NCBI GenBank assembly: GCA_021464245.1
Contig: JADCRB010000114.1
Span: 3,844,001 to 3,908,000, forward strand
Origin: Carallia brachiata
Lineage: Eukaryota > Streptophyta > Magnoliopsida > Malpighiales > Rhizophoraceae
Direction of reading: 5' to 3'
DNA: 64,000 nt
The position numbers were made by a program, and so were the translations under genes. Of this stretch, positions 2,181 through 32,628 are shown piece after piece. The first letter of the stretch is position 1. The number at the start of each line of letters is the position of its first letter. The notes under the pieces were generated by a model. That model was not told the origin of the DNA. It saw only the letters and a program-made list of their open reading frames with translations, and ran no database searches.

Positions 2181-2984
2181 TAAATTCTTTGAATATTTTT
2201 GACAAATTTAATGTTTTTTCAACATATGATGTATAATAATTAGTGCGATATATGATGATATAATTACCATCCTTGTAAAAATTTTAAAATAATATTACAC
2301 ACACATACGCGCGCACGCGTATACACACACATATATACATAATATTTAAGAAATTATAACTGAAAATAGTTAATCGGTTCAAACAAATTAAAGTAATTAA
2401 AAAAATTAATAAAAAATAAATATTTATTAATTATGATTTTTTTCTATCACAGTATTCATTAATACGTTCAACCAAAAAAAATTATTATGTGTATGATTTT
2501 TAATAAATTTTGAAATTAATTTTATAAGTGTCTATTATATATATATTAAATTACAAAAAAGAGAGTTTTTCCTTGGGTTTGGAGGCCTTTTTCGCCTATG
2601 TGACATGCTTCTTACTCTTTCGAGATTTTGATGTTTTAATTATTTTACTTATTATAAAGATTCTAAAGACATTTAACACAAATGCAAAGATTATTGTCAA
2701 ATTGATTACTTTATAGGACTATTATATAAAATTATCAATTTTTAATAGAATTCCTTGGTAGTCTTTATATATTTTTTATCAAAATAAATTTCTTCAATTC
2801 ACGTGATTATAAATATACAATTAATTTTGTTGGACCATATACATTTTTTTTTTTTTTGGCAAAAAGAGACGAAACTAGGCAGAGAAAACAATCAACTTGT
2901 CAATTCTTCAACAGTGGTAATCCCAATTATTTTGCTTCTGTATGCAAATCTCATCGTCAATTATTTTACCAGTCTTTTTTATTT

Positions 2985-3125
2985 TCCTTCGGTTTCTTGC
3001 TTGGCTGTCTGTTAGAAGCAACAGTTTTCATGGTTCTTCACTGGAAACATGCATCCCTCTTTGGCAACTTGACCATGCTCAAGAAGTTGTCTCTTTCCCA
3101 CAACAAATTCGATGGTACGATTCTG
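2985..3125 (+). pseudogene. LRR receptor-like gene fragment, unit 1 copy
   Basis: Around 3058-3125 the frame reads NLTMLKKLSLSHNKFDGTI, a plant extracellular LRR (LxxLxxLxLSxNxFxGxI). A preceding partial repeat (SNSFHGSSLETC) is in a different frame, so the fragment is broken. The unit 2 counterpart keeps both parts in one frame. No kinase, transmembrane or N-terminal part is nearby, so this is a relic and not a gene. Confidence 0.45.
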
Positions 3126-3409
3126 TCGTTATTAATTTATTTAGTTTGTTACTTTCTTCTTCTTTAACTTTTGACAGTTAATTATCCAATTCATGCTTAA
3201 TTGCAATTACGTTTGATTTGTGATTTGTTCCTTTATTCTTTATTTATTTATTGTAATCTTCGCAATTTATTAGGAAAGTTAAAATATATATATATATTAG
3301 GGGGTTAGAAAATTTTTATTTGTAGTTTTTGGAAAACCATTAAAGAAATATATTTTTTGCTATGAATTTTTTCTTGCTATTGCATGCTCTTTTGCTTATA
3401 TATCTTTTA

Positions 3410-3638
3410 GGGGATCATGGCGAAACAATTTTTCCCTATTACGTCCACATGAATTTTTTTTGTGTAACCACAAGTATTTTTTGTGCAACCACATAGGAAA
3501 AATGTGCAACGAAAAAATAATAATATTTTTTGAATTACTTTTTATCGATTTGGTTACACAAAATACGTTCCTGGTTACACAAAAAAAATTTCGTGTGGAG
3601 ACAATTGGGAGAAATCATTTGGCCATAAACTTTTTCCC
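3410..3638. mobile_element. Mutator-type MITE (229 bp) with 9-bp TSD
   Basis: The element is flanked by perfect 9-bp direct repeats TATCTTTTA (3401-3409 and 3639-3647). Its ends are inverted repeats of about 60 bases: the left arm begins GGGGATCATGGCGAAAC, the right arm ends TGGCCATAAACTTTTTCCC, and the inner parts pair GTGTAACCA with TGGTTACAC. Unit 2 has the empty site, with a single TATCTTTTA near 28826. A 9-bp duplication with long TIRs is the hallmark of Mutator-like elements. Confidence 0.82.
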
Positions 3639-4639
3639 TATCTTTTATGATTTGGGGCAAAAGCTATTTAATTTCCAATGAAGACCAAATTTGCTTTTTT
3701 TTAAAGGAAGCTTTGGATGCTTTTGCTTGTAGACGGCTTTTCAATGCATAGGACTTCTTTAAAAACTCAATCAAGATTTTGGTTTATAATCATGTATGCG
3801 ATATTTTATAATTCTTCATTGTTCTCATTCATTTGGTAAGATAATAAATACTAGCCTCTTACATTGATTGTGTTAAAACGAAAAAAAAAAAAAAACCTTC
3901 TTAAATTAATTCTTACCATTAGCAAGGCAATAACTAAAGGACTCAAATAGTATAAATAATGCCAATAACTATGAAAGTAGACGAGGGACAAAGGACTCAA
4001 GGAAGAGATGTTATGAATTATTTATCTTATCTTAATAATTCATTTTGAAAAAAAATTCAAATTATTATTTCATTTTACAATTACCATATTATCATGTAAA
4101 TTAAACAATCCATTGTACGGGGCTATATATATACTAATTTGTTAGACACGTTTCAAAATATCTAACATATATTTGAAGAGTATTTGAAAAATATCATATC
4201 TGACACAAATATGCATTACATTAGAAGTATCCATGCATCATAGTCAGCAATCAACCATAGCAGACAACAAAGTATTGCAAATAAAGTTTAATTGCAAACC
4301 CAGAACCATAATTTAATGGTGAAATTAATGAGGATATTAATGGAACATCTATATAACTATCTATCTTTAACTATACATTTTATAGCCGAAAGAAAATCAT
4401 GCTCTTATCTTCCCCTTATCTTATTAATTATAAACTTAATGATTAATTTTACTCAAAATATTTTTCGATTTATCATTATCGACCAAACATTTTTTTAGGT
4501 CATATCCACTACATTATTTCTGTCAACTAAAATCTACCAATCACTTTTTCCGTTAAATAGCATATCATGTCATCATAATTAATTTTTTGAAAATATTTTT
4601 ATAACTTTTTAACAATGAAACAAAAATAAAAAAATTTAT

Positions 4640-4780
4640 CTCTCTCCTCCTTCCTCCCTCTCTCTCCTCAACTCTCTCTCTATCCTCGCTCTTTGTCCTC
4701 CCGCCTCCCTTTCTCTCTCCTCACTCCTCTCGCCTTCCTTTCTCTCTCCTCTCTTCCCTCTCTCCTCCTTCCTCCGTATA
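4640..4780 (+). repeat. Pyrimidine-rich (CT) tract
   Basis: About 140 bases are almost pure C/T (CTCTC, CCTCC words), roughly 500 bases upstream of the UGT start. The unit 2 equivalent (29910-29970) is much shorter, so the tract is length-unstable. Confidence 0.7.
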
Positions 4781-5122
4781 TTAAATCCTATCTTTCCTAA
4801 CCGATAAAAGAAAAGGGACAGAAATTATAGTCCAATCCAACCTTGATGTCTATTACTATAACATACAAAATGAAAGCTGACTAGATGATGATATTTTGTC
4901 CTTCATCATTTTTTAAGTCCCTTTTTTTTTTGTTTTGTTTAAAACCGTTACATATTTAACTTGAAAATTGATCAATCTAAATTAACTTGGATAAAATCAC
5001 GTAAATAATAAAAGTCTCTCAACAAGTATTTAACGTGATTACATTGTTAGAATTTAAATCCAAGATTTCTGATTAAAGGCGGCTGATTTTTTAAGTTCCT
5101 TGTTTGTTTTTTTCTTCTCGTT

Positions 5123-5130
5123 TATATAAA
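5123..5130 (+). promoter_or_regulatory. Putative TATA box of UGT copy 1
   Basis: TATATAAA lies about 150 bases upstream of the UGT ATG at 5277. The same place in unit 2 (about 30903-30915) reads TTTAAACAAATG and has no TATA box. Confidence 0.5.
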
Positions 5131-5276
5131 TGCAACTTATCTACGCTCTGGATGTAAGGACAAAAAATTTTGAAGATTCAAACCTTATGATATTCACTAG
5201 GTAAAGTCTAAAGCTAAGGCCGAGCACTGAACAACAGAAACAAACAACCTTCTGCTTCAAAGTCGCCAAACCGGCC

Positions 5277-6867
5277 ATGGCAAACCTTGACAGGAGAACC
5301 CATGCTGTCCTGCTCCCCTTCCCAGAACAAGGCCACATCAACCCTTTTATGCAACTTGCCAGGATTTTGCACGCAAGAGGATTCAACATAACCTTTGTCA
5401 ACACTGAGTTTAACCATGGCCGCCTACTCCGATCCAAGGGGCCGGAATTCGTTAAGGGCTTAACAGATTTCAGGTTCGAGACTATACCAGATGGGTTGCC
5501 GCCTTCAGACCGCGATGCGACCCAAGATGTTTGGGCCCTTTGTGATTCGGTCAGGAAAAATTGCCTGGGGCCATTTAAGGAACTAATAACTAAGCTCAAT
5601 TCAACGCCGGATTTGTCTCCAGTTACTTGCATAATTTCGGATGGGGCCATGAGCTTTGCCATCAAAGCTGCAGAAGAGTTTGGCATCCCTGAAGTTCAAT
5701 TTTGGACAGCCTCAGCTTGTGGCTTCATGGGATATTTGCAGTATGGTGAACTCATGAGTAGAGGCATTGTTCCCTTTAAAGGTACAGTTTTATCATTCTT
5801 CATGCAGCTTTTAGGTTCAATTTTCAGCTTCTAGATGTAAAGATATATAATACAGTGTTTCACAAAGAAACAATTTTTTGATAATACACTGCAAGTAATC
5901 TGTCTCAGATACTTCATCCTGTAATGTGTCTCAGATAGCAACTTCACTAGTGACGGCACTCTTGAAGCTCCAGTTGATTGGATACCGTGCTTGAGAAACC
6001 TGCGACTCAAGGATCTTCCATCCTTCATTAGAACCACTGATCACGAAGACATCATGTTGAATTTCTTGAAGGAAGAAGCGGAAAGCTGCTTAAAGGCTTC
6101 CACAATCATCTTTAACACCTTTGATGAGTTTGAACAAGAAGTGTTAGAGGCTATTCGGCCAGGTTCCCTCGCATATATACTACAGGACCACTTTCTTTGC
6201 TGGAAAGGCACATGCCCCCCAGTGAAGCTAGAACATTCAGATCCAATTTGTGGAAAGAAGACTGGAGTTGCCTTGAATGGCTTGATAACAAGGAACCCAA
6301 TTCTGTCATCTATGTGAATTATGGCTCCGTTACTGTCATGTCTGACTTGCACTTTAAGGAATTTGCCTGGGGGCTTGCCAACAGCCAGCATTCATTTCTG
6401 TGGATCGTCAGACCTGATGTGGTAATGGGTAGTTCTGGAGTCCTGCCTGAAGAATATTATCAAGAGATTAAGGCAGAGGATTTCTAGCTACTTGGTGCCC
6501 ACAAGAACAAGTGCTTTGCCATCCGTCAATTGGAGCTTTTCTAACACATTGCGGATGGAATTCTATTTTAGAAAGCATATCTAATGGTGTTCCTATACTT
6601 TGCTGGCCTTTCTTTGGCGAGCAACCGACTAATTGCCAGTACTCTTGCACTGTGTGGGGGTTTGGCATGGAGGTCAATGCAGACGTCAAGCGAAATGATA
6701 TTGAAGCCCTAGTTAAGGAAATGATGGAGACAGAGAAAGGGAAGACAATGAAGGAAAAGGCTTTGGAATGGAAGAACAAAGCAGAACAAGCCACTGATGT
6801 TGGAGGCTCATCTTACAAAAATTTTGATAGGTTCATTGAGGAGGTCTTACTTTGTGGTCAAAAATAA
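5277..6867 (+). pseudogene. UGT85-type UDP-glycosyltransferase, copy 1 (two frameshifts)
   Basis: Family 1 glycosyltransferases move a sugar from UDP-sugar to small acceptors in the cytosol. Exon 1 is 5277-5781, exon 2 is 5935-6867, with a phase-1 GT-AG intron. The start [20 protein letters not shown] includes the catalytic His (QGHINP). The Asp partner fits CIISDG near residue 121. The PSPG sugar-donor box starts at WCPQEQVL near 6494 and includes THCGWNS and ends FFGEQ. Length without damage would be about 479 residues, normal for UGT85. Two single bases are missing relative to copy 2: one T in the run at 6154-6155 and one G in the run at 6472-6473. The frame therefore breaks twice and the PSPG box is out of frame with the N-terminus. 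Where copy 2 is broken (TTT at 31103-31105) this copy has TTTT and is intact. It is a pseudogene, unless the homopolymer losses are sequence errors. The acceptor is unknown. Confidence 0.85.
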
Positions 6868-12717: not shown

Positions 12718-12722
12718 CTTAT
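12718..12722. repeat. Target-site duplication, left
   Basis: CTTAT immediately before the 5' LTR is repeated immediately after the 3' LTR at 22705-22709. A 5-bp duplication is normal for Ty3/gypsy integration. Confidence 0.9.
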
Positions 12723-13378
12723 TGTAAACTAATAATAAAAGAAAAAAAAAATATAAATGGTTGGCAGCCGCCAACCTTGAAGGTTGGAAGCTGCCAACCT
12801 AATTAATGCCACCAACCATTTGGTTGGTGGCAGGCAGGCAGCTGGGGGAGGCCTATAAATGGCCTCCCCCCAATTAGATGGCAGCAGAGAAAAAAAGAAG
12901 AAAAAAGAAAAAAGGCAGCGAAGCGCAGCAAAGAAAAAAAAAAAAAGAAAAAAAAAAAAAAAAAAAGAAAAAAAAAGAGAGAGATAGTAAAAAAAAAAAA
13001 ATCTACAAATCCGGCTGGGATTAAGTCTCATACGGCCCTCAGCAAAATCCAGGCAACTCATCCGAGAACAAGTCCATTCGACCCTCGGTGAAATTAAGTC
13101 AGATCAGCTCAGATCGAGTCTCTACGGTTCCTAAACGTAGTCAAAACATCCAAATCAGACACAGTTTCAGTCTATCCAGTTCAAGAAAAAGCGGTGGAAA
13201 TTATTTCTGTCCAGATCAAGCTCGTGCAGCCCTTGACGGAGTCAAAAAAGGAACACTAATCGGAGGATCTACGGAGATCGACCCCACGTAAATTTTCTTT
13301 TACTTTACAATTTTTATTTGTAATTTATTTTTGTATTTTCGAGTTTAATTGTTTTAGGCTCGAAATTTACGCTTTACA
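12723..13378 (+). repeat. 5' LTR
   Basis: It starts TGTAAACTAATAATAAAAG and ends GCTTTACA. It holds three successive inverted repeats upstream of and around the TATA box (12760-12870), a long A-rich segment (about 12890-13005), and the R/U5 side. It differs from the 3' LTR by many small indels and substitutions, so the insertion is not very recent. Confidence 0.93.
12844..12870 (+). promoter_or_regulatory. LTR TATA box held in the loop of a 10-bp inverted repeat
   Basis: GGGGGAGGCC (12844-12853), TATAAAT (12854-12860), GGCCTCCCCC (12861-12870). The same structure is kept in the 3' LTR at 22186-22212. It should be the element's core promoter. Confidence 0.75.
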
Positions 13379-13384
13379 AATTTT

Positions 13385-13402
13385 TGGCACGCTCGGTGGG
13401 AC
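13385..13402 (+). other. Candidate tRNA primer-binding site
   Basis: TGGCACGCTCGGTGGGAC begins seven bases after the 5' LTR. It is of the TGGC(G/A)C form used by many plant gypsy elements. I did not assign the tRNA. Confidence 0.55.
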
Positions 13403-13427
13403 AACTTCACCTCCCATCTCTTGTTCC

Positions 13428-13566
13428 TAAAAAAAAAAAAGAGGTAAAAGGGGAGCCGAGAGAAAAAAAAAAAGTAAAAAAAAAAAAAAAGTAAAAAAGT
13501 AAAAGTAAAAAGTAAAAAAAAAAAAAAGTAAAAAGTAAAAAAGTAAAAAAAAAAAAAAAAAAAATT
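13428..13566 (+). repeat. A-rich AAAAGTAAAA leader repeat
   Basis: Almost 140 bases of poly-A broken by GTA, between the primer site and gag. Long minus-strand poly-Phe frames over it are artefacts. Confidence 0.75.
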
Positions 13567-13571
13567 TACAG

Positions 13572-15300
13572 GTGTTCAGCACATCAAATGGCACCGAAAA
13601 GGAGTACAACTGCTGCCACAAAAAGAAGGCAACGGCTCCATTGCCTGCATCAACTACCCTACCTGGGTACGCAGGTCCAGAAACCCGGGGACGGACACAA
13701 TTTCTTGCCGTCCAAACCCGACAAAATGTCGAAATGGAGAGTCCACAGCTTGCACAACAGGATCTCTCCCCTGACTCTCTTGCCGCATGGAGGAGTCGAT
13801 CACCCACCCCGATCGAAATCGGGGGCAACACGACGAAGCCTGCTCAACAAAATCCGACTCACACAGAAGAATCAGAAGAGTTTTCTCCCCCAGTCTTTCC
13901 CGGAGCCTCATCTGTTGCCGTCATGATGACCAACACAACCAGCACAGAGGAAAGGATTTCAGAATTGGAGAACAAAATTTTGCAGCTGATCAGAGTCGTG
14001 AGGAAAAAGATCAACAGATCGCAGCTCTCAAAGGAAAAGCCCCGATCCAAGTTGATCCCGAAATCCGCGAGGAGCAACCATATCCACCCGGTTTCACTCC
14101 AGAAGCCACACCAGCCGACGTCTTCCCTGCAGAAAAGCGACCAGGTAGTTCTACACAGCTGCCACCCTCAAATTCTGTAGCTTCGCTATCTGTTCAACAA
14201 TTGCAGGAAATGATAGCCAATACGATCCGACTGCAACAAGCTACATCCTTCCAAGGATCAGATGTACGTCAAACCGTACACCAGACGGATCGAAAGTCTC
14301 AACATGCCCTTGGGCTACCAGCCGCCCAAATTTCAACAATTCGACGGACGAGGCGATCCCAAACAGCACATCGCCCACTTCGTTGAAACCTGCAACAACG
14401 CAGGGACTTATGGAGATCTCTTGGTGAAGCAGTTTGTTCGTTCACTCAGGGAGACCGCTTTCACCTGGTTCATAAATCTTGAACCAGAATCGATCGACAG
14501 TTGGGAACAGCTACAACGAGAGTTCCTCAACAGATTTTTCAGCACTCGAAGGACGGTAAGTATGATGGAGCTTACCAGCACCAAACAAAGGAAAGGAGAG
14601 CCCGTTGTCGAATACATCAACAGATGGCGTGCCCTCAGCTTGGACTGCAAAGATCGCCTGACGGAGACTTCTGCCGTGGAGATGTGCATCCAGGAATGCA
14701 TTGGGAGCTGTTATACATCCTGCAGGGTGTCAAACCCCGAACTTTCGAAGAACTGGCGACCCGGCACATGATATGGAGATAAGCATCCAGACTTCCGGAG
14801 GCACGGTTCCCATCCAGTTGGACCAGCAAGGGGGCAGAAGGGAGATTAAGAAACCCAACAGCTCCGGAAAAGGAAAGAAGTGATGACTGTTGAAGCCGCA
14901 CCAGTAAAAGTGGGCGCCAAAGCTAAGGTAAATCCTCCGACCCAAATAACTCAGCCAAAACAACAGGAAAGGCGGAAGGTGACATTGCGAGAGCTGGAGC
15001 AGAAGCAGTATCCATTCCCCGACTCAGACGTCCCCGACATTCTTGAACAACTTTGGAGGCGAAACTGATCGAACTCCCAGAGTGCAAGCGGCCGAATGAA
15101 AAGGATCGAGTCAGCGATCCAGATTCTGCAAATATCACCGGATAGTAAGTCATCCAACCGAGAAGTGTTTCGTCCTGAAGGAGCTAATCATGAAGCTCAA
15201 AAGCCAGAATAAAATCATTCTGGACCAGGAAGGCAACCTCGCAAACCAACCACCATCACTTCAAAACCATCAGAAGAGGTGACACACCGTAAGGAGGAGC
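13572..15300 (+). pseudogene. Retrotransposon gag (frameshifted)
   Basis: The N-terminal part is spread over two frames (13572 onward, then 13787-14386). The capsid-like retrotrans_gag domain is in frame at 14262-14771 (FQQFDGRGDPKQHIAHF, FTWFINLEPESIDSWEQL, FLNRFFS). Further on, KVTLRELEQKQYPFPDSD (about 14978) and a zinc-knuckle-like CKYHRIVSHPTEKCFVLKE (about 15125-15185) match the Tat-type gag C-terminus. At least three frame changes are needed to read through, so no full Gag is made from this copy. Confidence 0.85.
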
Positions 15301-15599
15301 CGCTCGACAACAAAAAGTCGACAACGGAGAAGGTATATGAAGCTCTCCAAACCCTTCTCGCTAACCCTCAGCTGTTTATAGCTTTGCAATCAACAGAAGT
15401 GTGGCAAAATCAAGTCAGCAATACTCTCCAGACCTCAGCTGAATCCAGCCATCAAATGAGTCTAACTCACGGAGCAACAGGCGGACCAAAATCACGTCGG
15501 ATGTTACTCTGCTATCTCATTTTCAGATGAGGATCTCCTGCTGGGGTCCAAACCCCACAATCGGCCGCTGTATGTATCAGGCTATGTGAAAGAAGAAGG

Positions 15600-15870
15600 T
15601 TCGACGTATTCTGATCGACGATGGCTCAGCAGTCAATATTATCCCAAAATCCACCATAAAGGAGCTCGGCATCGGTTGATGAATTATCAGACAGCCGCTT
15701 GATGATTCATGGCTTTAATCAAGGAGGACAGAAAGCAATTGGGATGATTCGCTTGGAGCTAACTATCGGTAATCTCACTTCTAGCACTCTATTTCACGTG
15801 ATTGATGCACGTACCACATATAAGATGTTGCTAGGACGACCGTGGATTCATGGAAATGGAGTTGTGCTCT
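15600..15870 (+). pseudogene. Retroelement aspartic protease domain (frameshifted)
   Basis: The active-site segment RRILIDDGSAVNIIPKS is read at about 15603-15653. The C-terminal half (FHVIDARTTYKMLLGRPWIH) is in the frame opened at 15699. A frameshift lies between them near 15660-15695. The DDGSA form of the active site is usual for Tat-type elements. Confidence 0.8.
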
Positions 15871-16409
15871 CAAGCCTGCATCAGTGCTTTAAGTATTACA
15901 ATGGTGGCGTTCAAAAGGTCAATGCTGACTTAAAGCCGTTCGATGATGCTGAATCACATTTGGCGGATGCAGTCTTCTACACTGACACAGACAATCCGGA
16001 GATCATTCCGTCAAAAGCTACTTGGACTGGGGGCATCCACAAAAAGGGAAAAGCTGTCGAAGAACCTGCCAATGCCAACCCCAGGCTCCAACAAATGAAA
16101 AGCTGCCACAGCCTGCTGAACTTCGTCCGAAGGATGTTGCATCTTCAAGCTCCACTCCAGTCCTACGCTATGTGCCAAGTCACGACGCTCAGAAGGTCAA
16201 CCCCCTTTCTCTTATTGTATTGATCTTAAACAGGAGCAAGGTCATAGCCAACCCAAAACAAAGGAGCTGCACAACCTGAAGGAGACTTACACTCTGCCGA
16301 TACCAAAGATTGAGCCGGTTTTGTCTTCAAAACCATTAAAAGGCTTCGTCAAACCACACACGGGGGCAGTCGAAGGCGGCTCACTTCCAGAAAGAAGAAC
16401 AAGAAGGAT

Positions 16410-16949
16410 TTGATCCTAATGCATACAAGCTTTTGGCAAGGCGGCTATGACTTCTCAAACCCGAGCACAATGGGTACGCTGCCGTCCACACATGGCGCCG
16501 CTTCTCAAACATCACAGTCCCGACCTGGCTTAGGCTATCAGGAGAAGTCACCTGTGCGGATCACGCTAAAGAGCCGAAGCCGAGCAGCTGATGCACGTGC
16601 CATCACCACCACCACCAAACAGACAGGCTTATCCAGTCAAACAAAGAAGGTGAAGTCAGAGGTTCCATTTCATGTCACAATCAGCGAGGAGGCTGAGTCC
16701 GACTCATCAGATGGTGAAGTGAAGGAGGCTCCCCCGGAACTTGAAGATGGTGGCCAAGCAACTGTTGATGAACTCAAGGAGGTCAATCTTGGCTCTCCGG
16801 AAGATCCTCGACCTACATTTGTAAGTGCTTTACTTACTGCAGAAGAAGAGCAAGAATATGTTCAGGTATTAAGTCAATACAGGGACGTGTTCGCATGGAG
16901 TTACAAAGAAATGCCTGGACTTGACCCAAAATTGCGGTGCATCGTCTAG
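16410..16949 (+). pseudogene. Protease-RT linker region of pol
   Basis: A 179-codon frame ends in SALLTAEEEQEYVQVLSQYRD and FAWSYKEMPGLDPK, the segment that normally precedes RT in gypsy pol. A frameshift at about 16940 separates it from the RT frame. Its first half is Ser/Thr/Lys-rich and unconserved. Confidence 0.75.
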
Positions 16950-17863
16950 CAGTAAAGAAGGGTGTCCGTTCTGTCAAGCAGCCACAACGACGGTTCCGCC
17001 CGGAACTCATTCCACAAATCGAGGAGGAGGTGAACAAGCTGATCAATGCCGGCTTCATCCGAGAGGTCACCTACCCAACGTGGATTGCCAACATTGTCCC
17101 AGTAAGAAAGAAGAATGGACAGTTGAGGGTATGTGTTGATTTTCGAGATCTTAACAAGGCCTGCCCGAAAGATGACTTTCCATTGCCCATAACGGAGATC
17201 ACAGTCGATGCAACAACGGGTCACGAAGCATTGTCTTTCATGGATGGTTCTTCAGGCTATAACCAAATCAGAATGGCACCAGAAGACGAGGAGTTGACAG
17301 CATTCCGCACCCCAAAAGGTATATACTGCTACAAAGTTATGCCGTTTGGATTGAAAAATGCTGGCGCCACTTATCAACGTGCTATGCAAAAAATTTTTGA
17401 TGACATGCTGCACAAGATTGTAGAATGTTATGTTGATGACTTAGTTGTAAAGACTAAGAAGCGCAAAGACCACCTCGAGGATCTCAAGACAGTGTTCGAA
17501 AGACTTCGGAGGCATCAGCTCAAAATGAACCCTCTCAAGTGCGCATTCGGTGTCACATCAGGAAAGTTTCTTGGGTTCGTGGTGCGCCATCGTGGAATCG
17601 AAGTTGATCAGTCAAAGGTTGAGGCAATTCAAAAGATGCCTGAACCTAAAAACCTGCACGAGCTGCGAAGTCTACAAGGAAAGCTAGCCTACATTCGCCG
17701 TTTCATCTCCAATTTAGCTGGGAGATGTCAACCTTTCCATCGGTTGATGAAGAAGGATGTCAACTTCGAGTGGGACGAAGCTTGCAGCAAAGCCTTTGAA
17801 AGCATAAAGAAGTATCTTTCCAATCCACCGGTCCTAGGTGCTCCAATTCAAGGAAAGTCGTGA
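16937..17863 (+). pseudogene. Reverse transcriptase domain of pol
   Basis: A 308-codon open frame. Gypsy RT motifs are in order: WIANIVPVRKKNGQLRVCVD, FRDLNKACPKDDFPLP, SGYNQIRMAPEDEE, AFRTPKGIYCYKVMPFGLKN, catalytic YVDD (about 17432), FLGFVVRHRGIEV. It polymerises cDNA from the element RNA in virus-like particles. This is the least damaged part of pol, but it is out of frame with both neighbours. Confidence 0.93.
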
Positions 17864-18290
17864 TTCTCTACATTGCAGCAGGAAAGATCTTTGGGCCTTG
17901 CTTGCACAGGGAAACGAGCAGGGAAAGGAAGTTGCCCTGTACTACTTGAGCAGAACACTAAACGGTCCGGAGCTGAGTTATTCGCCCATTGAAAAGACAT
18001 GTCTAGCACTGTTCTTTGCCATTGACAAGCTGAGGCACTACATGCAAGCTCACACGGTACGTCTCATTGCCAGAGCTGATCCTGTCAAATATATCTTATC
18101 CAGACCAATCTTGTCAGGACGACTTGCCAAGTGGGCAGTAATCCTACAAAGCTACGACATTGTCTACGTGCCTCAAAAAGCAGTCAAAGGACAAGCTCTA
18201 GCAGACTTCCTTGCAGATCACCCTGTTCCGTCAGATTGGGAGTTCACAGATGATCTTCCAGATGAAGAGGTCTTTTACATTGAGACACTG
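17838..18290 (+). pseudogene. RNase H domain of pol (gypsy type)
   Basis: The frame reads GKEVALYYLSRTLNGPELSY, then IEKTCLALFFAIDKLRHYM and LSRPILSGRLAKWAVILQSYD. The beginning of the domain, around 17860-17900, is garbled by small deletions, so the first catalytic acidic residue is not seen. Confidence 0.8.
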
Positions 18291-18710
18291 CCACCATGGA
18301 CGATGTTCTTTGATGGTGCAGCAAGGCGTGATGGTGCTGGTGCCGGTATAGTGTTTGTCACTCCTCAACGACAAATACTACCATATGCTATCTTCTCGGT
18401 GAGTTATGTTCAAATAATGTTGCTGAATACCAGGCTTTGATCATTGGTCTTCAAATGGCTGTCGATATGAAGATTCCAACTATAGAAGTCCATGGAGATT
18501 CCCAGCTCGTCATCAACCAACTTACAGGATTGTATGACGTGAAGAAAGAGGACCTTGCGCCTTACCATCAACGTGCTCGACAGCTAATGGATGAATTTGA
18601 AAGCATCACCTTGGAGCATGTGCCTCGACGAGAAAACACTCAGGCAGACGCGTTGGCTAACCTGGCACTTCTCTTGCAAAGTCAGAAATCCAGGCTACAG
18701 TTGTTGCGTA
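18291..18710 (+). pseudogene. Second, plant/archaeal-type RNase H domain of pol
   Basis: After PPWTMFFDGAARRDGAGAG (first Asp; about 18291 on), the domain goes on in another frame from 18437 with MAVDMKIPTIEVHGDSQLVI and VPRRENTQADALANLA. This is an additional RNase H 3' of the gypsy RNase H, which is diagnostic of Tat-lineage elements. A frameshift lies near 18405-18437. Confidence 0.85.
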
Positions 18711-18939
18711 TGTCAGAAATGGATAGTGCAAAGGATGATGAAGAAACTACAGCAGCCAACGCTGTATCTACGTCTCGCGGAGGACGATTGGCGCCAACCA
18801 ATCATTGACTATCTACAGCACGGGAAGCTGCCGAAGATCGTCGTCATAAGACAGAAATTCAACGACGAGCTCCCCGTTCATATATCTCAAGGATGCTCTG
18901 TATCGAAGGTCTTTTGATGGAGTTCTACTTCGCTGCCTA

Positions 18940-20026
18940 GCCAATGAAGAGGCAAAACAGGCTCTCACTGAAGCACATTCTGGTGTTTGTGGCGGACATC
19001 AATGGGCCTAAGTTGCACTTCCAACTCAGAAGGATGGGATACTACTGGCCAACCATGGTACGTGATTCAATTGAGTTTGCTAAAACTGTCAAGCTTGTCA
19101 ATTTCATGCAATTACATACATCAACCACCGGAGCCACTGCATCCAACTGTCTCATCCTGGCCCTTTGAAGCTTGGGGTCTCGACTTAGTGGGGCCCTTGC
19201 CAAAGTCATCCCTGGGTCACCTGTACATCCTCGCAGCAACCGACTACTTCTCAAAATGGGCTGAAGCCATTCCACTTAGAGAGGTAAAGAAGGAGCATGT
19301 TGCCAATTTCATCCGGACTCAGCTGATCTATCGCTATGGAGTCCCTCGATTCATCATCACTGATAATGGTAAGCAGTTCTACAACAGCTTAATCGACAAG
19401 CTCTGCGAGAAGTTCAAGTTCAAGCAGTACAAGTCATCCATGTACAATGCCCCAGCAAATGGCTTGGCCGAAGCATTCAACAAGACCTTATGCAACCTGT
19501 TGCGGAAGGTAGTCTCTAAATCCAAAAGAGATTGGCATGACAGAATTCCGGAGGCATTATGGGCGTATCGTACAACTTACCGGACTCCAACACAGGCGAC
19601 GCCATACTCACTTGTCTACGGTGTCGAAGCAATACTGCCGTTGGAAACACAGATTCCATCCCTGCGCATGGCTGTTCTGGAAGGACTCACACAGGAGGAG
19701 AATGCTCGCCTACGTCTGGATGAGTTAGAAGCCTCGATGAAAGGAGGCTCGAAGCACAACAGCAACTTGAGTGCTACCAAGCCCGGCTCACCAACACGTT
19801 CAACCGCAGGGTCCGCCCTCGATCTTTTCAAGTTGGAGACCTTGTTCTTGCAGTGCGACGGCCCATCAACATGAAGCATCGGCCTGGTGACAAGCTTACT
19901 TCCAAATGGGACGGGCCATACTTAGTGCAGGAGGCCTACACTCACAACGCTTACATGCTGTCAGACCAAGAAGGCGTCCGAATCGGCCCAATCAATGGTA
20001 AATTTCTGAAACAGTATTATGTGTAA
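18940..20026 (+). pseudogene. Integrase region of pol (frameshifted)
   Basis: The catalytic core has FEAWGLDLVGPLPKS (first Asp, about 19165), PRFIITDNGKQFYNS (second Asp) and NGLAEAFNKTLCNL (Glu). It is followed by WAYRTTYRTPTQATPYSLVYG. A frameshift near 19742 puts the C-terminal part in another frame, which ends GPYLVQEAY to KFLKQYYV at TAA 20024-20026. The zinc-binding N-terminus (about 18940-19130) is also in a broken frame. Confidence 0.9.
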
Positions 20027-20030
20027 ATAT

Positions 20031-20068
<38 letters not shown>

Positions 20069-20400
20069 AAAAAAAATCAAAAAAAAAAAAAAAAAAAAAA
20101 AAGTTCGGAAGTCCCGATCTGAAGTCAAGCGAAAAAAAAATCCAAACCAAGCAAACCCAAACACTGAGCCCAAACTCAAAACCCAACTCAAAAGCCTGAA
20201 AACCAAATCCAAAAGTCCAAGTCCAAAGCCCAAACACTCGACCCAAGTCCAAAAATCCAAGTCTAGAAGCCCAAACACTCGACCCAAATCCAATCCAAAG
20301 CCCAAAACCCAAAAATTCCAAGTCCCAAACACAGTCCAGAACCCAAGTTCAAAATCCAATCCAACTCCTGGCCCGCATGAGTATAAACTGTGAACGGCCC
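20027..20400 (+). repeat. Poly-A tract and CCCAAA-rich low-complexity spacer after pol
   Basis: 20035-20102 is almost pure A with two TC interruptions. 20130-20360 is built from words like CCCAAACAC, TCCAAAG and ACCCAAG. The Gly/Phe/Leu-rich minus-strand frames over it are compositional artefacts. Confidence 0.7.
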
Positions 20401-20405
20401 AAAAA

Positions 20406-20413
20406 TATAAAAG
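20406..20413 (+). promoter_or_regulatory. TATA-like sequence upstream of the WUS-like ORF
   Basis: TATAAAAG lies 88 bases upstream of the homeodomain ORF's ATG (20501). A CT/CA-rich leader typical of plant 5' UTRs follows. It may be a promoter captured with the gene. Confidence 0.35.
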
Positions 20414-20500
20414 TAACGGAGGGTTTGAGTCTGAAACTCAGCATCAGTCTCAACCGATCTTCACCACACACCAGACCTTTACTCCTCTGCCGCAAGAAAG

Positions 20501-21111
20501 ATGGAACCAGTTGCAGAACCTCAAGACAAGGGAGAAGAAAGGTCACCTCGCACAAGGTGGCAACCGACCATGGCACAACTGCAAATTTTGGAGGAAGTCT
20601 TCTACAACGATGGAGGTATTGTCCCTAACTCTACACAGATTCTCCAACTTGTCTCACGACTTCGCCCGCTAGGGGCAGTCGAAGGAAAAAATGTATATTT
20701 TTGGTTCCAGAATCGGAGACATAGGGAAACAGTGGCTGAGAGATGGTATTTCCAAAGCACAGCCTGTTGTTCCTATAGTAGATCTCACCAGTACAGCTTC
20801 ACCCTCAAATGAAGCCGGCCCAAGTTCTACCACTGCAATGGTCTCTCCACGGTACGTTCATCAAAGCCGTAGCCTATGGGAGCATACATACTGGTCCTGG
20901 TGGTTTCACGGAGTCAGCCAAGGGTTCATCCCTCCTAGATACTTAAGTCTAGGAGGAATTTTTCTAGCACACAGGAGTCATTCCGGCGAAATTTTGCCTC
21001 TCTTTCCAGAATATTCCGGCAGCATCAACCAGCCGGAAAGCGACGTCCAACATCATCGGCCCACCAGACGAGGTCGAGCTTGACTTGGAGTTGCACCTCG
21101 GGCCCCGCTAG
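20501..21111 (+). pseudogene. WUSCHEL-clade (WOX) transcription-factor-like coding segment carried by the retrotransposon
   Basis: WUS/WOX proteins are plant nuclear homeodomain repressors that maintain stem cells. The frame opened by ATG 20501 carries a full homeodomain at residues 17-76: RTRWQPT start, QLQILEEVFY helix 1, TQILQLVSRL helix 2, EGKNVYFWFQNRRHRE helix 3. From the RW to the end of WFQN is 52 residues, the WUS-type spacing. EGKNV(F/Y)(Y/F)WFQN points to the WUS clade. Just after the homeodomain the frame shifts (about 20725-20735). A second frame (codons in phase with 20691) contains EILPLFPEY (20988-21014), like the WUS-box TLPLFP. A third frame ends DEVELDLELHLGPR with stop TAG 21109-21111; LDLELHL (21079-21099) fits an EAR repression motif. 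HD, WUS-box and EAR are in the correct order. Total size of about 200 codons suits a short WOX5-like protein. No intron is visible. At least two frame changes mean this copy cannot make the full protein; an HD-only product (103 codons) is open. Confidence 0.82.
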
Positions 21112-21132
21112 GACGGCCGACAAGATAAGGTG

Positions 21133-21220
21133 CAACGACTTCTGCAGCACGCGGCAACGACTTCCGCAGCACACGGCAACGACTTCTGCCACACACGGTA
21201 ACGACTTTCGTGACACGCGT
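21133..21220 (+). repeat. 22-bp tandem repeat, about 4 copies
   Basis: Units begin at 21133, 21155, 21177 and 21199 and follow CAACGACTTCTGCAGCACGC with substitutions. They lie directly after the EAR-like end of the WUS-like segment. Confidence 0.8.
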
Positions 21221-21402
21221 CAGCCGCTGCCTCTTTTGTCTCTTATGCAGGAAAGGGACGATGCCCTACCCGATTCTGCGTACCTTTTTTTGACTTTTCA
21301 AAAAAAAAAAAAAAAAAAAACAAAAAAAACTTTTTATTTGTATATATATCCTGCATGCCCGAGTTGTATATTCACCCCTCAGCTCTTCTTTCTCAAAAGA
21401 AA

Positions 21403-21705
21403 ATGGCTAGTCTCTGCACTTGTCTCAGGAAGTTCTTCGATCAAGAAGTTGGAGGCGCACGAGCTAAGAAAAGAAGGAGTAGTCTTCTTCGAGGGATCCC
21501 TAAAAGCCCTCGAAACTCAGTCTCCAACGCCATCGGTGTCATGGAGTTCCAACTACTCTCCTTAGTTCACATCTACCACAGAGGGATGAGAAGCTGCAAT
21601 TATCCTAATCTTTCTTTGGATGCAGCGACGTACAGGGAAGTTCCAACTACTCTCCTTACGTCGAAGCAGACTTGGAAATCATCACTACAGTCAGTCTCTC
21701 TGTGA
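21403..21705 (+). other. Orphan ORF in the retrotransposon 3' region
   Basis: About 100 codons from ATG 21403 (MASLCTCLRKFFDQEVGG), including a basic stretch KKRRSS that could be a nuclear signal. I recognise no domain. A 20-base direct repeat (GTTCCAACTACTCTCCTTA, near 21546 and 21640) lies inside. It may be more captured host sequence or untranslated 3' DNA of the element. Confidence 0.3.
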
Positions 21706-22050
21706 GCCGGTCTTGAAGTTCCAAGGTCCTGAGCCTTTCTCTTGGGGGGTTGAAGTTCTTTGCCTACTGGATCATCCTCACCAGAGCTGGAACTTTAAGA
21801 GATATAAAAAATCCTTTGCGGGCTATGGAAGCTCGAATGCACCTGGAGCCAAGACTTCAATTTCTATATTGGCTGGGCTGCTAACTTCTTCAAGATCATA
21901 TCGGTTTCCTATTGCGATCCAACAACAGCGGAGATGGTCAAAGATAGAAGACTCCAAGATTCAATGTTCATCAGGACTTTCCAAATTTCAAACTGGACTT
22001 CAAGACTCGGTTCGAATTATCTCTGTAAAAAATTTTTCTTACCGACCCTT

Positions 22051-22064
22051 GAAGTGGGGGCATT
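22051..22064 (+). other. Polypurine tract
   Basis: GAAGTGGGGG followed by CATT lies immediately before the 3' LTR, where plus-strand priming is expected. Confidence 0.75.
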
Positions 22065-22704
22065 TGTAAACTAATAATAAAAAAAAAAAAATATATAAAT
22101 GGTTGGCAGCCGCCAACCTTGAAGGTTGGCAGCTGCCAACCTAATTAATGCCACCAACCATTTGGTTGGTGGCAGGCAGGCAGCTGGGGGAGGCCTATAA
22201 ATGGCCTCCCCCCAAATTAGATGGTGCCAGCGAGAGAAAGAGAAGAAAAAAGAAAAAAAAAAAAAAAAAGGGCAGCGAAGCGCAGTGAAGAAAAAAAAAA
22301 AAAAAAAGAAAGAGGAAGTAAAAAAAAAAAAAAAATCGAAATATTACAAATCGGCTGGGATTAAGTCTCATACGGCCCTCAGCAAAATCAGGCAACTCAT
22401 CCGAGAACAAGTCCATTCGACCCTCGGTGAAATTAAGTCAGATCACTCAGATCGCTCTCTGGTTCCTAAACGTAGTCAAAACATCCAAATCAGACACAGT
22501 TTCAGTCTATCCAGTTCAAGAAAAAGCGGTGGAAATTATTTCTGTCCAGAGCTCATGCAGCCCTTGACGTCAAAAAAGGAACACTAATCGGAGGATCTAC
22601 GGAGATCGACCCCACGTAAATTTCTTTTTACTTTACAATTTTATTTGTAATTTATTTTTGTATTTTGAGTTTAGTTGTTTTAGTCTCGAAATTTACGCTT
22701 TACA
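22065..22704 (+). repeat. 3' LTR
   Basis: It starts TGTAAACTAATAAT and ends GCTTTACA, colinear with the 5' LTR including the hairpin TATA structure. It is 16 bp shorter through several small gaps (for example in the stretch after 22440). CTTAT follows at 22705-22709. Confidence 0.93.
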
Positions 22705-22709
22705 CTTAT

Positions 22710-31034: not shown

Positions 31035-32628
31035 ATGGCAAACCTTGACAACAGTACCCATGCTGTCCTGCTTCCCTTCCCAGCACAAGGCCACATCAAC
31101 CCTTTATGCAACTTGCCAGGATTTTGCACTCAAGAGGATTCAACATAACCTTTGTCAACACTGAGTTTAACCATGGCCGCCTACTCCGATCCAAGGGGCC
31201 GGAATTCGTTAAGGGCTTAACAGATTTCAGGTTCGAGACTATACCAGATGGGCTGCCGCCCTCAGACAGTGATGCAACCCAAGATGTTTGGGCCCTTTGT
31301 GATTCGCTCAGAAAAAATTGCCTGGGGCCATTTAAGGAACTAATAGCTAAGCTCAATTCAACGCCGGATTTGTCTCCAGTTACTTGCATAATTTCGGATG
31401 GGGTCATGAGCTTTGCCATCAAGGCTGCAGATGAGTTTGGCATCCCTGAAGTTCAATTTTGGACGGCCTCAGCTTGTGGCTTCATGGGATATTTGCAGTA
31501 CGGTGAACTCATGAGTAGAGGCATTGTTCCCTTTAAAGGTACAATTTTCTCATTCTTCATGCAGCTTTTAGGTCCAATTTTCAGCTTCTAGATGTAAAGA
31601 TATATATAATACAGTGTTACACAAAGAAACATTTTTTTGATAATACAGTGCAAGTAATCTGTCTCAGATACTTTATCATGTAATGTGTCTCAGATAGCAA
31701 CTTCACTAGTGACGGCACTCTTGACGCTCCAGTTGATTGGATACTGGGCTTGAGAAACCTGCGACTCAAGGATCTTCCATCCTTCATTAGAACCACTGAT
31801 CACGAAGACATCTTGTTGAATTTCTTGAAGGAAGAAGTGGAAAGCTGCTTAAAAGCTTCCACAATCATCTTTAACACCTTTGATGAGTTCGAACAAGAAG
31901 TGTTAGAGGCTATTTCGGCCAGGTTCCCTCGCATATATACTACGGGACCACTTTCTTTGCTGGAAAGGCACATGCCCCCCAGTGAAGCTAGAGCATTCAG
32001 ATCCAATTTGTGGAAAGAAGACTGGAGTTGCCTTCAATGGCTTGATAACAAGGAACCCAATTCTGTCATCTATGTGAATTATGGCTGTATTACTGTCATG
32101 TCTGACTTGCACTTTCAGGAATTTGCCTGGGGGCTTGCCAACAGCCAGCATTCATTTCTGTGGATCGTCAGGCCTGATGTGGTAATGGGTAATTCTGGAA
32201 TCCTGCCCGAAGAATATTATCAAGAGATTAAGGGCAGAGGATTTCTAGCTACTTGGTGCCCACAAGATCAAGTGCTTTGCCATCCATCAATTGGAGCTTT
32301 TCTAACACATTGCGGATGGAATTCTACTTTAGAAAGCATATCTAATGGTGTTCCTATACTTTGCTGGCCTTTCTTTGGCGAGCAACCTACAAATTGCCGG
32401 TACTCATGCACTGTGTGGGGGTTTGGCATGGAGGTCAATGCAGATGTCAACCGAAATGATATTGAGGCCCTAGTTAAGGAAATGATGGAGACAGAGAAAG
32501 GGAAGAAAATGAAGGAAAAGGCTTTGGGAAGAAGAAACAAAGCAGAACAAGCCACTGACGTTGGAGGCTCATCTTACAAAAGCTTTGATAGGGTCATTGA
32601 GGAGGTCTTACTTTGTGGTCAAAAATAA
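31035..32628 (+). pseudogene. UGT85-type UDP-glycosyltransferase, copy 2 (one frameshift)
   Basis: Exon 1 is 31035-31538 and exon 2 is 31694-32628, with the same phase-1 intron as copy 1. Exon 2 is fully open and encodes the acceptor-side linker and the complete PSPG box (WCPQDQVL to FFGEQ, from about 32254). The expected length is 479 residues. One T is missing from the run at 31103-31105 (four T in copy 1), which shifts the frame at residue 24, right after the catalytic GHINP, and closes it soon after. An internal ATG at 31106 opens the rest of exon 1, but such a protein would lack the catalytic His. The upstream TATA box of copy 1 is not preserved here. It is a pseudogene, or intact if the missing T is a sequencing error. 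Confidence 0.85.

Follow-up and report, generated by a model that had tools for sequence, protein, structure and literature searches.

The additional open reading frames (ORFs) of plant long terminal repeat (LTR) retrotransposons are mostly without known origin or function, and an element that seemed to contain a gene of the WUSCHEL (WUS) type behind pol raised the question whether a stray gene fragment had been hit or whether such elements carry this gene as a part of their own. The element lies in Carallia brachiata DNA (assembly GCA_021464245.1, contig JADCRB010000114.1, forward-strand positions 3,844,001-3,908,000), and this whole stretch of 64,000 nt is called the window here. From the motifs of the segment at 20501-21111, its occurrence in sister copies and the length of its homeodomain, a family of Tat-type elements very probably carries a WUS-type additional ORF (aORF), captured long ago and kept. 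The origin of the extra ORF is legible in this case, and the donor would be a master regulator of shoot stem cells.

The WUS-like segment of the window copy

An initial annotation, made from the letters of the DNA, had described a full WOX homeodomain followed by a WUS box and an EAR motif on the sense strand, past the stop of pol (20026) and before the 3' LTR (22065), and these coordinates agree with ours. The homeodomain matches Pfam PF00046 (E 8.8e-10). Among solved structures in the PDB its best relative is WUSCHEL (E 7.1e-17), to which 67 residues align without a gap, followed by STENOFOLIA with one gap (E 4.6e-15). It is full except for its last few residues, which lie behind a frame break; the frame starts with the ATG at 20501 and reaches a stop at 20812 after 103 codons. 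Identity to Arabidopsis WUS is 30/67, a count that used four residues from behind the break (R100 is kept in a natural copy too, F101 in neither). A tryptophan at homeodomain position 101 was dismissed as an artefact, read from behind the break; a ten-residue key set was chosen after the alignment had been seen and carries little weight, and a neutral-decay simulation started from Arabidopsis WUS was superseded by the copy-to-copy comparison given below.

The WUS box LPLFP (20994-21008) and the EAR motif LDLELHL (21079-21099) follow in this order before a stop codon (21109-21111). When the stretch behind the homeodomain was subjected to 3000 dinucleotide shuffles and read in three frames, LPLFP arose once, L.LFP 37 times, [DE]L[DE]L.L twice and bare L.L.L 574 times; L.LFP together with L.L.L was obtained nine times and L.LFP together with [DE]L[DE]L.L in 0/3000 shuffles, so that a chance origin is unlikely, as had been proposed. 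Homeodomain, box and EAR motif occupy three different frames in the window copy, and the protein therefore cannot be made from this copy in its present state. An assembly error was considered as the cause of the broken frame because the exons of two presumably UGT85-like tandem genes in the window show three single-base indels relative to each other; real decay is the simpler reading, given the multi-base indels between the LTRs and the many sister copies whose frames are broken.

Occurrence in sister copies

Searches covered the genome to which the window belongs (337.5 Mb in 164 contigs), and copies were chosen by similarity to the aORF (40), to the homeodomain (51) or to the 3' end of pol (20); none of the three samples is random. 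With the aORF as query 40 of 1241 candidates were scored, window included, matching over the full length at 99-100%. The pol-end query led to 40 scored of 992 candidates, and in all 20 of those examined (the first 20 of 39 other copies) a WUS-like segment stands behind pol, nearly complete in 19 and as a 70-base match in one. Ten of these segments are of type A (96-99% like the window) and nine of type B (91-95% like locus L083). A 17-base homeodomain word with at most one mismatch has 834 matches in the genome, at places not checked individually, and its reversed control has none.

Homeodomain, box and EAR motif share one frame in 32/40 aORF-chosen copies by motif alone and in 29/40 by a stricter test, in 6/51 homeodomain-chosen copies by the stricter test (10/51 are open to the end by another criterion) and in 3/20 pol-chosen copies; the claim of a single ORF thus fails for the window copy and holds for these sisters. 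Full ORFs of 203-208 codons, in 20 distinct DNA sequences, are present in 35 of the 91 copies of the two similarity-chosen sets, homeodomain and box have a common frame in 37/40 and 16/51 copies, and reading from the ATG continues beyond the homeodomain without a stop in 32/51 homeodomain-chosen and 9/20 pol-chosen copies. A stray fragment captured locally, or formed by chance, in a single copy would be compatible with the broken, three-frame window copy taken alone. Such a single-copy capture, and likewise box and EAR motif missing from the ORFs of sister elements, had been named beforehand as outcomes adverse to a captured gene; with the segment in 20/20 pol-chosen copies, 834 word matches and natural one-frame copies, neither occurred, and the probability of a local or chance origin is practically nil.

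For loci L077-L087 the aORF is open in 1/11, and the last 600 bases of pol are open in 0/7 that have them, hence breakage of the aORF is no worse than that of pol in this group. Two pairs of aORFs in the same orientation, on contig C139 (28742-29379 and 38820-39451, ~10 kb apart) and on contig C129 (2078251-2078888 and 2083105-2083742, ~5 kb apart), perhaps reflect neighbouring or recombined elements. Viral contigs gave no match.

Structure and classification of the element

The segment belongs to a complete Tat-type LTR retrotransposon (12723-22704) with the target-site duplication CTTAT on both flanks and LTRs that start with TG and end with CA. Near 37.7 kb, a tandem duplication provides a paralogous copy of the target site without the insertion. 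The following features were assigned (+, forward strand):

12718-12722, no strand: left target-site duplication CTTAT
12723-13378, +: 5' LTR (TG...CA), from alignment to the 3' LTR
14217-14771, +: part of gag (PF03732, E 6.1e-14)
16925-17863, +: reverse transcriptase (PF00078, E 5.3e-35; ~8000 relatives scored, including many plant retroelement proteins)
17838-18440, +: RNase H (PF17917, E 8.6e-20)
18332-18808, +: additional RNase H, aRH (PF13456 RVT_3, E 6.7e-24)
18972-19874, +: integrase (PF00665, E 8.2e-11)
19724-20026, +: C-terminal end of pol, with a natural sister frame in locus L002
20501-21111, +: WUS-like aORF, broken here; 203-208 codons and open in part of the sister copies
20546-20740, +: in-frame part of the WUS-type homeodomain, from Pfam and PDB matches
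20994-21008, +: WUS box LPLFP, in a different frame from the homeodomain in the window copy
21079-21099, +: EAR motif LDLELHL, in the third frame in the window copy
21403-21705, +: short open frame without a Pfam match, with few substitutions among eight copies
22065-22704, +: 3' LTR, from alignment to the 5' LTR
22705-22709, no strand: right target-site duplication CTTAT

Pfam analysis led to the domain order gag, reverse transcriptase, RNase H, second RNase H (RVT_3) and integrase. The aRH next to the RT_RNaseH match is the marker of the Tat clade of Ty3/gypsy elements, and its position between RNase H and integrase is the layout of Ogre and Retand among angiosperm Tat elements (excerpts of PMC6317226). 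For the antisense ORF TRP28 of Retand type (PF04195), no Pfam match was obtained in the three antisense frames of at least 80 codons between pol and the 3' LTR of the window copy. In the Ogre lineage the extra ORF is placed upstream of gag. Only ~0.8 kb separates the 5' LTR from the gag match in our element, and 13539-14180 gave no match to the Ogre-type plant mobile domain, which occurs in 57% of Ogre elements according to excerpts of PMC6317226. The gag-pol region of the window copy is heavily interrupted, the cheapest path at equal costs requiring 12 frame changes and 5 stops, and the Kimura two-parameter (K2P) distance between its LTRs is 0.031 over 529 sites with A-rich stretches excluded.

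In the short frame at 21403-21705, for which there was no Pfam match, mean substitutions among eight copies amount to 0.15% compared to 3.65% and 3.99% in the adjoining stretches and 0.25% at the pol end. Tandem repeats of 41 and 22 bases flank the WUS-like ORF (20203-20293 and 21132-21207), and a TATA-like TATAAAAG at 20406-20413, ~90 bases upstream of its ATG and spotted by eye, perhaps provides this ORF with its own start. The U3 part of the LTRs (12759-12827 and 22101-22169) has three consecutive GGTTGG...CCAACC inverted pairs upstream of the TATA box. Elsewhere in the window, the tandem genes at 5205-6867 and 31049-32628, which we take to be UGT85-like from their protein sequence, with their three single-base exon indels (one gap versus two) are pseudogenes or contain assembly errors.

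Origin of the aORF

With the Arabidopsis WUS homeodomain as query, 150 of 1404 candidates were scored, and these, selected by score, comprise nine host WOX loci (64-85%) and 141 matches at 51-56%, one of them with an internal stop. Of 51 loci retrieved from the 141, 49 have an aORF of nearly full length, and pol lies in front in 8 of the first 11. The WUS-type host loci among the listed matches are L068 (contig C90) and L069 (contig C65) with 80-85% identity; together with two further close pairs of host WOX homeodomains, L070/L071 and L075/L076, they form a pattern such as a genome duplication would leave.

Counted from W39 to N90, 12/12 element homeodomains and 3/3 WUS sequences span 52 residues, and 11/11 other WOX sequences compared (two of them identical) span 51; for WUS, excerpts of PMC7203112 describe one extra residue, Y54, inserted where helix 1 ends. 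In addition, the box of L083 reads ETLPLFP, the same as in both host WUS loci. The proposed capture of a WUS/WOX-type gene is therefore supported, and homeodomain length and box favour a WUS-type donor. That the donor was another WOX (WOX1-7) and the residue in helix 1 was gained later would agree with a tree that does not place the element homeodomains and with their equal identity to WUS and STENOFOLIA (30 and 30), but is improbable, given that a span of 52 occurs only in WUS among the 14 WOX sequences compared, that the homeodomain aligns ungapped to, and scores best with, WUS, and that the box ETLPLFP matches host WUS. Another homeobox class as the source was also considered and rejected or left as unlikely. 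The phylogeny suggested in the initial annotation united the 12 element homeodomains in one group (support 98/96) on a long branch; grouping with WUS was not rejected (p-AU 0.178, approximately unbiased test), and a place within WOX was not obtained.

At L068 and L069 ~1.1 kb separates the homeodomain from the box, each of which has an open frame to itself, and the Medicago WUS homologue has three exons (excerpts of PMC6305195). The element, unlike the host WUS loci, has both within a single uninterrupted run, which fits the capture of a spliced WUS transcript, though an intron in sense orientation would presumably tend to be lost in later rounds anyway.

Constraint and age

For the selection analysis 89/91 copies could be aligned. 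Variants common to at least two copies show a ratio of amino-acid-changing to silent variants (N:S) of 91:61 in the coding frame and of 109:38 and 118:35 in the off frames. Per site, N/S of shared variants is 0.44 and 0.43 in the coding frame (two frequency classes) and 0.80-1.40 off frame, compared to 0.70, 0.65 and 0.77 for singletons in the three frames; Fisher's test of the coding-frame shared variants against the off frames gave p values of 0.0099 and 0.0013. Between the two subtypes (19/19 loci for the aORF, 15/19 for pol) the proportion of silent differences (pS) is 0.217 and the ratio of amino-acid-changing to silent differences (pN/pS) 0.48 in the aORF, with 0.061 and 0.15 at the 3' end of pol. 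The check for purifying selection that had been proposed thus speaks for constraint on the aORF protein, which appears to be lower than that on pol.

Several observations weigh against a captured ORF that has been kept. The aORF is broken not just in the window but in 17/20 pol-chosen and 45/51 homeodomain-chosen copies, so intactness across the family, as initially envisaged, holds for some natural copies and fails for most in samples not chosen by the aORF. Constraint is weak, with a pN/pS of 0.48-0.52 in the aORF and 0.12-0.21 at the 3' end of pol of the same loci, and pairwise ratios of non-synonymous to synonymous divergence (dN/dS) of 0.47, 0.64, 0.50, 0.50 and 0.43 by dS bin show no steady fall. 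Shared variants differ only modestly from coding-frame singletons (Fisher p 0.041), and as the variants are not independent all these p values are guides. The homeodomain taken by itself offers few variants, and its commonest class (12:8) is much like that of off-frame 1 (18:9). Furthermore, the best tree puts the element homeodomains outside the WUS clade, and no related protein was found elsewhere when two frames of the broken aORF were compared to a protein database that does contain plant proteins (11 and 8 candidates, none scored), in limited searches which missed ordinary WOX proteins too. We nevertheless regard a retained WUS-type aORF as the reading that very probably applies.

The silent-site divergence of the WUS module exceeds that of the accompanying pol, which points to exchange between element lineages, as does the mosaic of blocks common to several copies in the stretches beside the aORF. 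The window LTRs differ by ~3% though aORF and pol end are ~99.5% like those of sister copies; together with the block pattern this suggests exchange between elements. An apparent extreme conservation, zero aORF divergence among loci L001-L008, was dropped because these loci had been selected by that very sequence and their surroundings are a mosaic. Substitution rates used for dating are 7e-9 to 1.3e-8 per site and year. At a pS of 0.217 the subtypes would have split ~10-18 million years ago; assuming neutral silent sites, the capture would be at least this old. Single insertions are younger than this split: ten copies gave nine LTR pairs (one copy gave none) with K2P distances of 0, 0.004, 0.004, 0.010, 0.012, 0.017, 0.034, 0.037 and 0.144, the last resting on 355 sites and doubtful.

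Possible function and alternative explanations

In the element homeodomain the base-reading residues R38, Q89, N90 and R94 and the dimer-patch residue I66 are kept (roles according to excerpts of PMC8329861 and PMC7203112), while F85/Y86 are swapped to Y/F in the window subfamily and unchanged in L077-L087. When box and EAR motif of Medicago HDL were mutated together, the interaction with TOPLESS was lost (excerpts of PMC6305195). From the kept residues, the box and the EAR motif, the predicted natural protein of 203-208 residues holds the parts of a WUS-type repressor. It could enter the nucleus and bind WUS-type sites, box and EAR motif could recruit TOPLESS co-repressors, and the protein might act as a WUS-like repressor or competitor wherever the element is expressed. 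The element might benefit from adjusting its own promoters or those of the host there, or from giving an advantage to stem cells or to cells on the way to the germline.

Judged from the sequences, some regulatory benefit of the protein to the element is moderately probable. Against this stands the explanation that WUS was captured long ago and has since been copied as a spacer, the mild constraint being a remnant or due to selection on a non-protein feature. Such a passenger would account for the broken majority of copies, for a constraint far weaker than that of pol and for adjoining non-coding blocks that persist between copies too. It does not readily account for the deficit of amino-acid changes in shared variants being confined to the coding frame, for base-reading residues that persist in both subtypes despite the pS of 0.217, for box and EAR motif persisting in L083 and the window type, or for the aORF of L077-L087 being no more broken than pol, and we therefore consider a passenger rather unlikely; explanations of any further kind are improbable.

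A different benefit would result if the captured homeodomain served the LTR promoter or the packaging of the element itself, with little to do with meristem control. This would be in line with the kept base-reading residues and with a WUS site of the TAAT type upstream of the TATA box in 7/12 LTRs, when ~0.08 would be expected for each (mononucleotide shuffle). However, the seven include both window LTRs and likely represent one ancestral site, so they are a lead only; the site is missing in 5/12 LTRs, 10/22 LTR stretches were excluded as their start word was not found, and mere binding would need neither box nor EAR motif. Autoregulation of this kind is therefore doubtful. The most far-reaching version of a regulatory benefit, in which the element would use its own WUS-type repressor on stem-cell identity or on promoters there, and thereby reach expression and transposition in germline-feeding cells, with several hundred WUS-like sequences spread as raw material for regulators, is a tentative idea and rather unlikely.

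A selfish element may be using the stem-cell language of plants, and if the protein works, it becomes testable whether plant retrotransposons steer host development toward the germline. In genomes of this kind, homeobox and WOX counts can be inflated by element copies, a warning for annotation, and the many WUS-like frames could serve as a source of new genes.

Comparison with known systems

Among the papers listed in full-text searches of open-licence literature, no title or abstract opening describes a WUS gene inside a retrotransposon, which does not imply that none is published. In word searches homeobox, homeodomain and WUSCHEL had no mention in PMC11963269, PMC7264820, PMC9289625, PMC6317226 and PMC8775202, and 'homeo' was absent from the 2026 review PMC13317346.

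The aORF resembles TRP28 and other additional ORFs of Tat/Retand elements as an extra, family-wide ORF between pol and the 3' LTR of elements with aRH between RNase H and integrase. In 63 Retand clusters no sense ORF encoded a known domain (excerpts of PMC11963269). In contrast, the ORF described here is in sense orientation and its origin is legible, the three antisense frames mentioned above lack a TRP28 match, and the stretch that holds it has 2,038 bases instead of 2,933-6,566. With captured host genes in plant LTR elements such as Bs1 and Rider/SUN it has in common a host gene in sense orientation inside the element; LOGL4 in Athila and histone H3 in chromoviruses are further examples. 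In the present element, however, the donor would be a stem-cell transcription factor. Moreover, transduced genes are said to occupy one or few copies (excerpts of PMC7264820), far from what the pol-chosen copies and word matches indicate here. A further parallel is the ORF of orchid Gypsy elements for an N6-methyladenosine (m6A) RNA demethylase, which has a cellular relative and was kept through replication (excerpts of PMC9289625): both are additional ORFs with a recognisable cellular relative, the orchid one an enzyme with shown activity, ours a predicted transcription factor known from its sequence. WUSCHEL and the WUS clade of WOX proteins share with it a homeodomain of WUS-type length, the WUS box and the EAR motif in the same order. 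The element ORF differs from them in lying within a mobile element, in encoding its 203-208 residues without interruption, and in its divergence, as the window subfamily homeodomain has 30/67 and the other subfamily matches 51-56% identity to Arabidopsis WUS, compared to 80-85% for host WUS.
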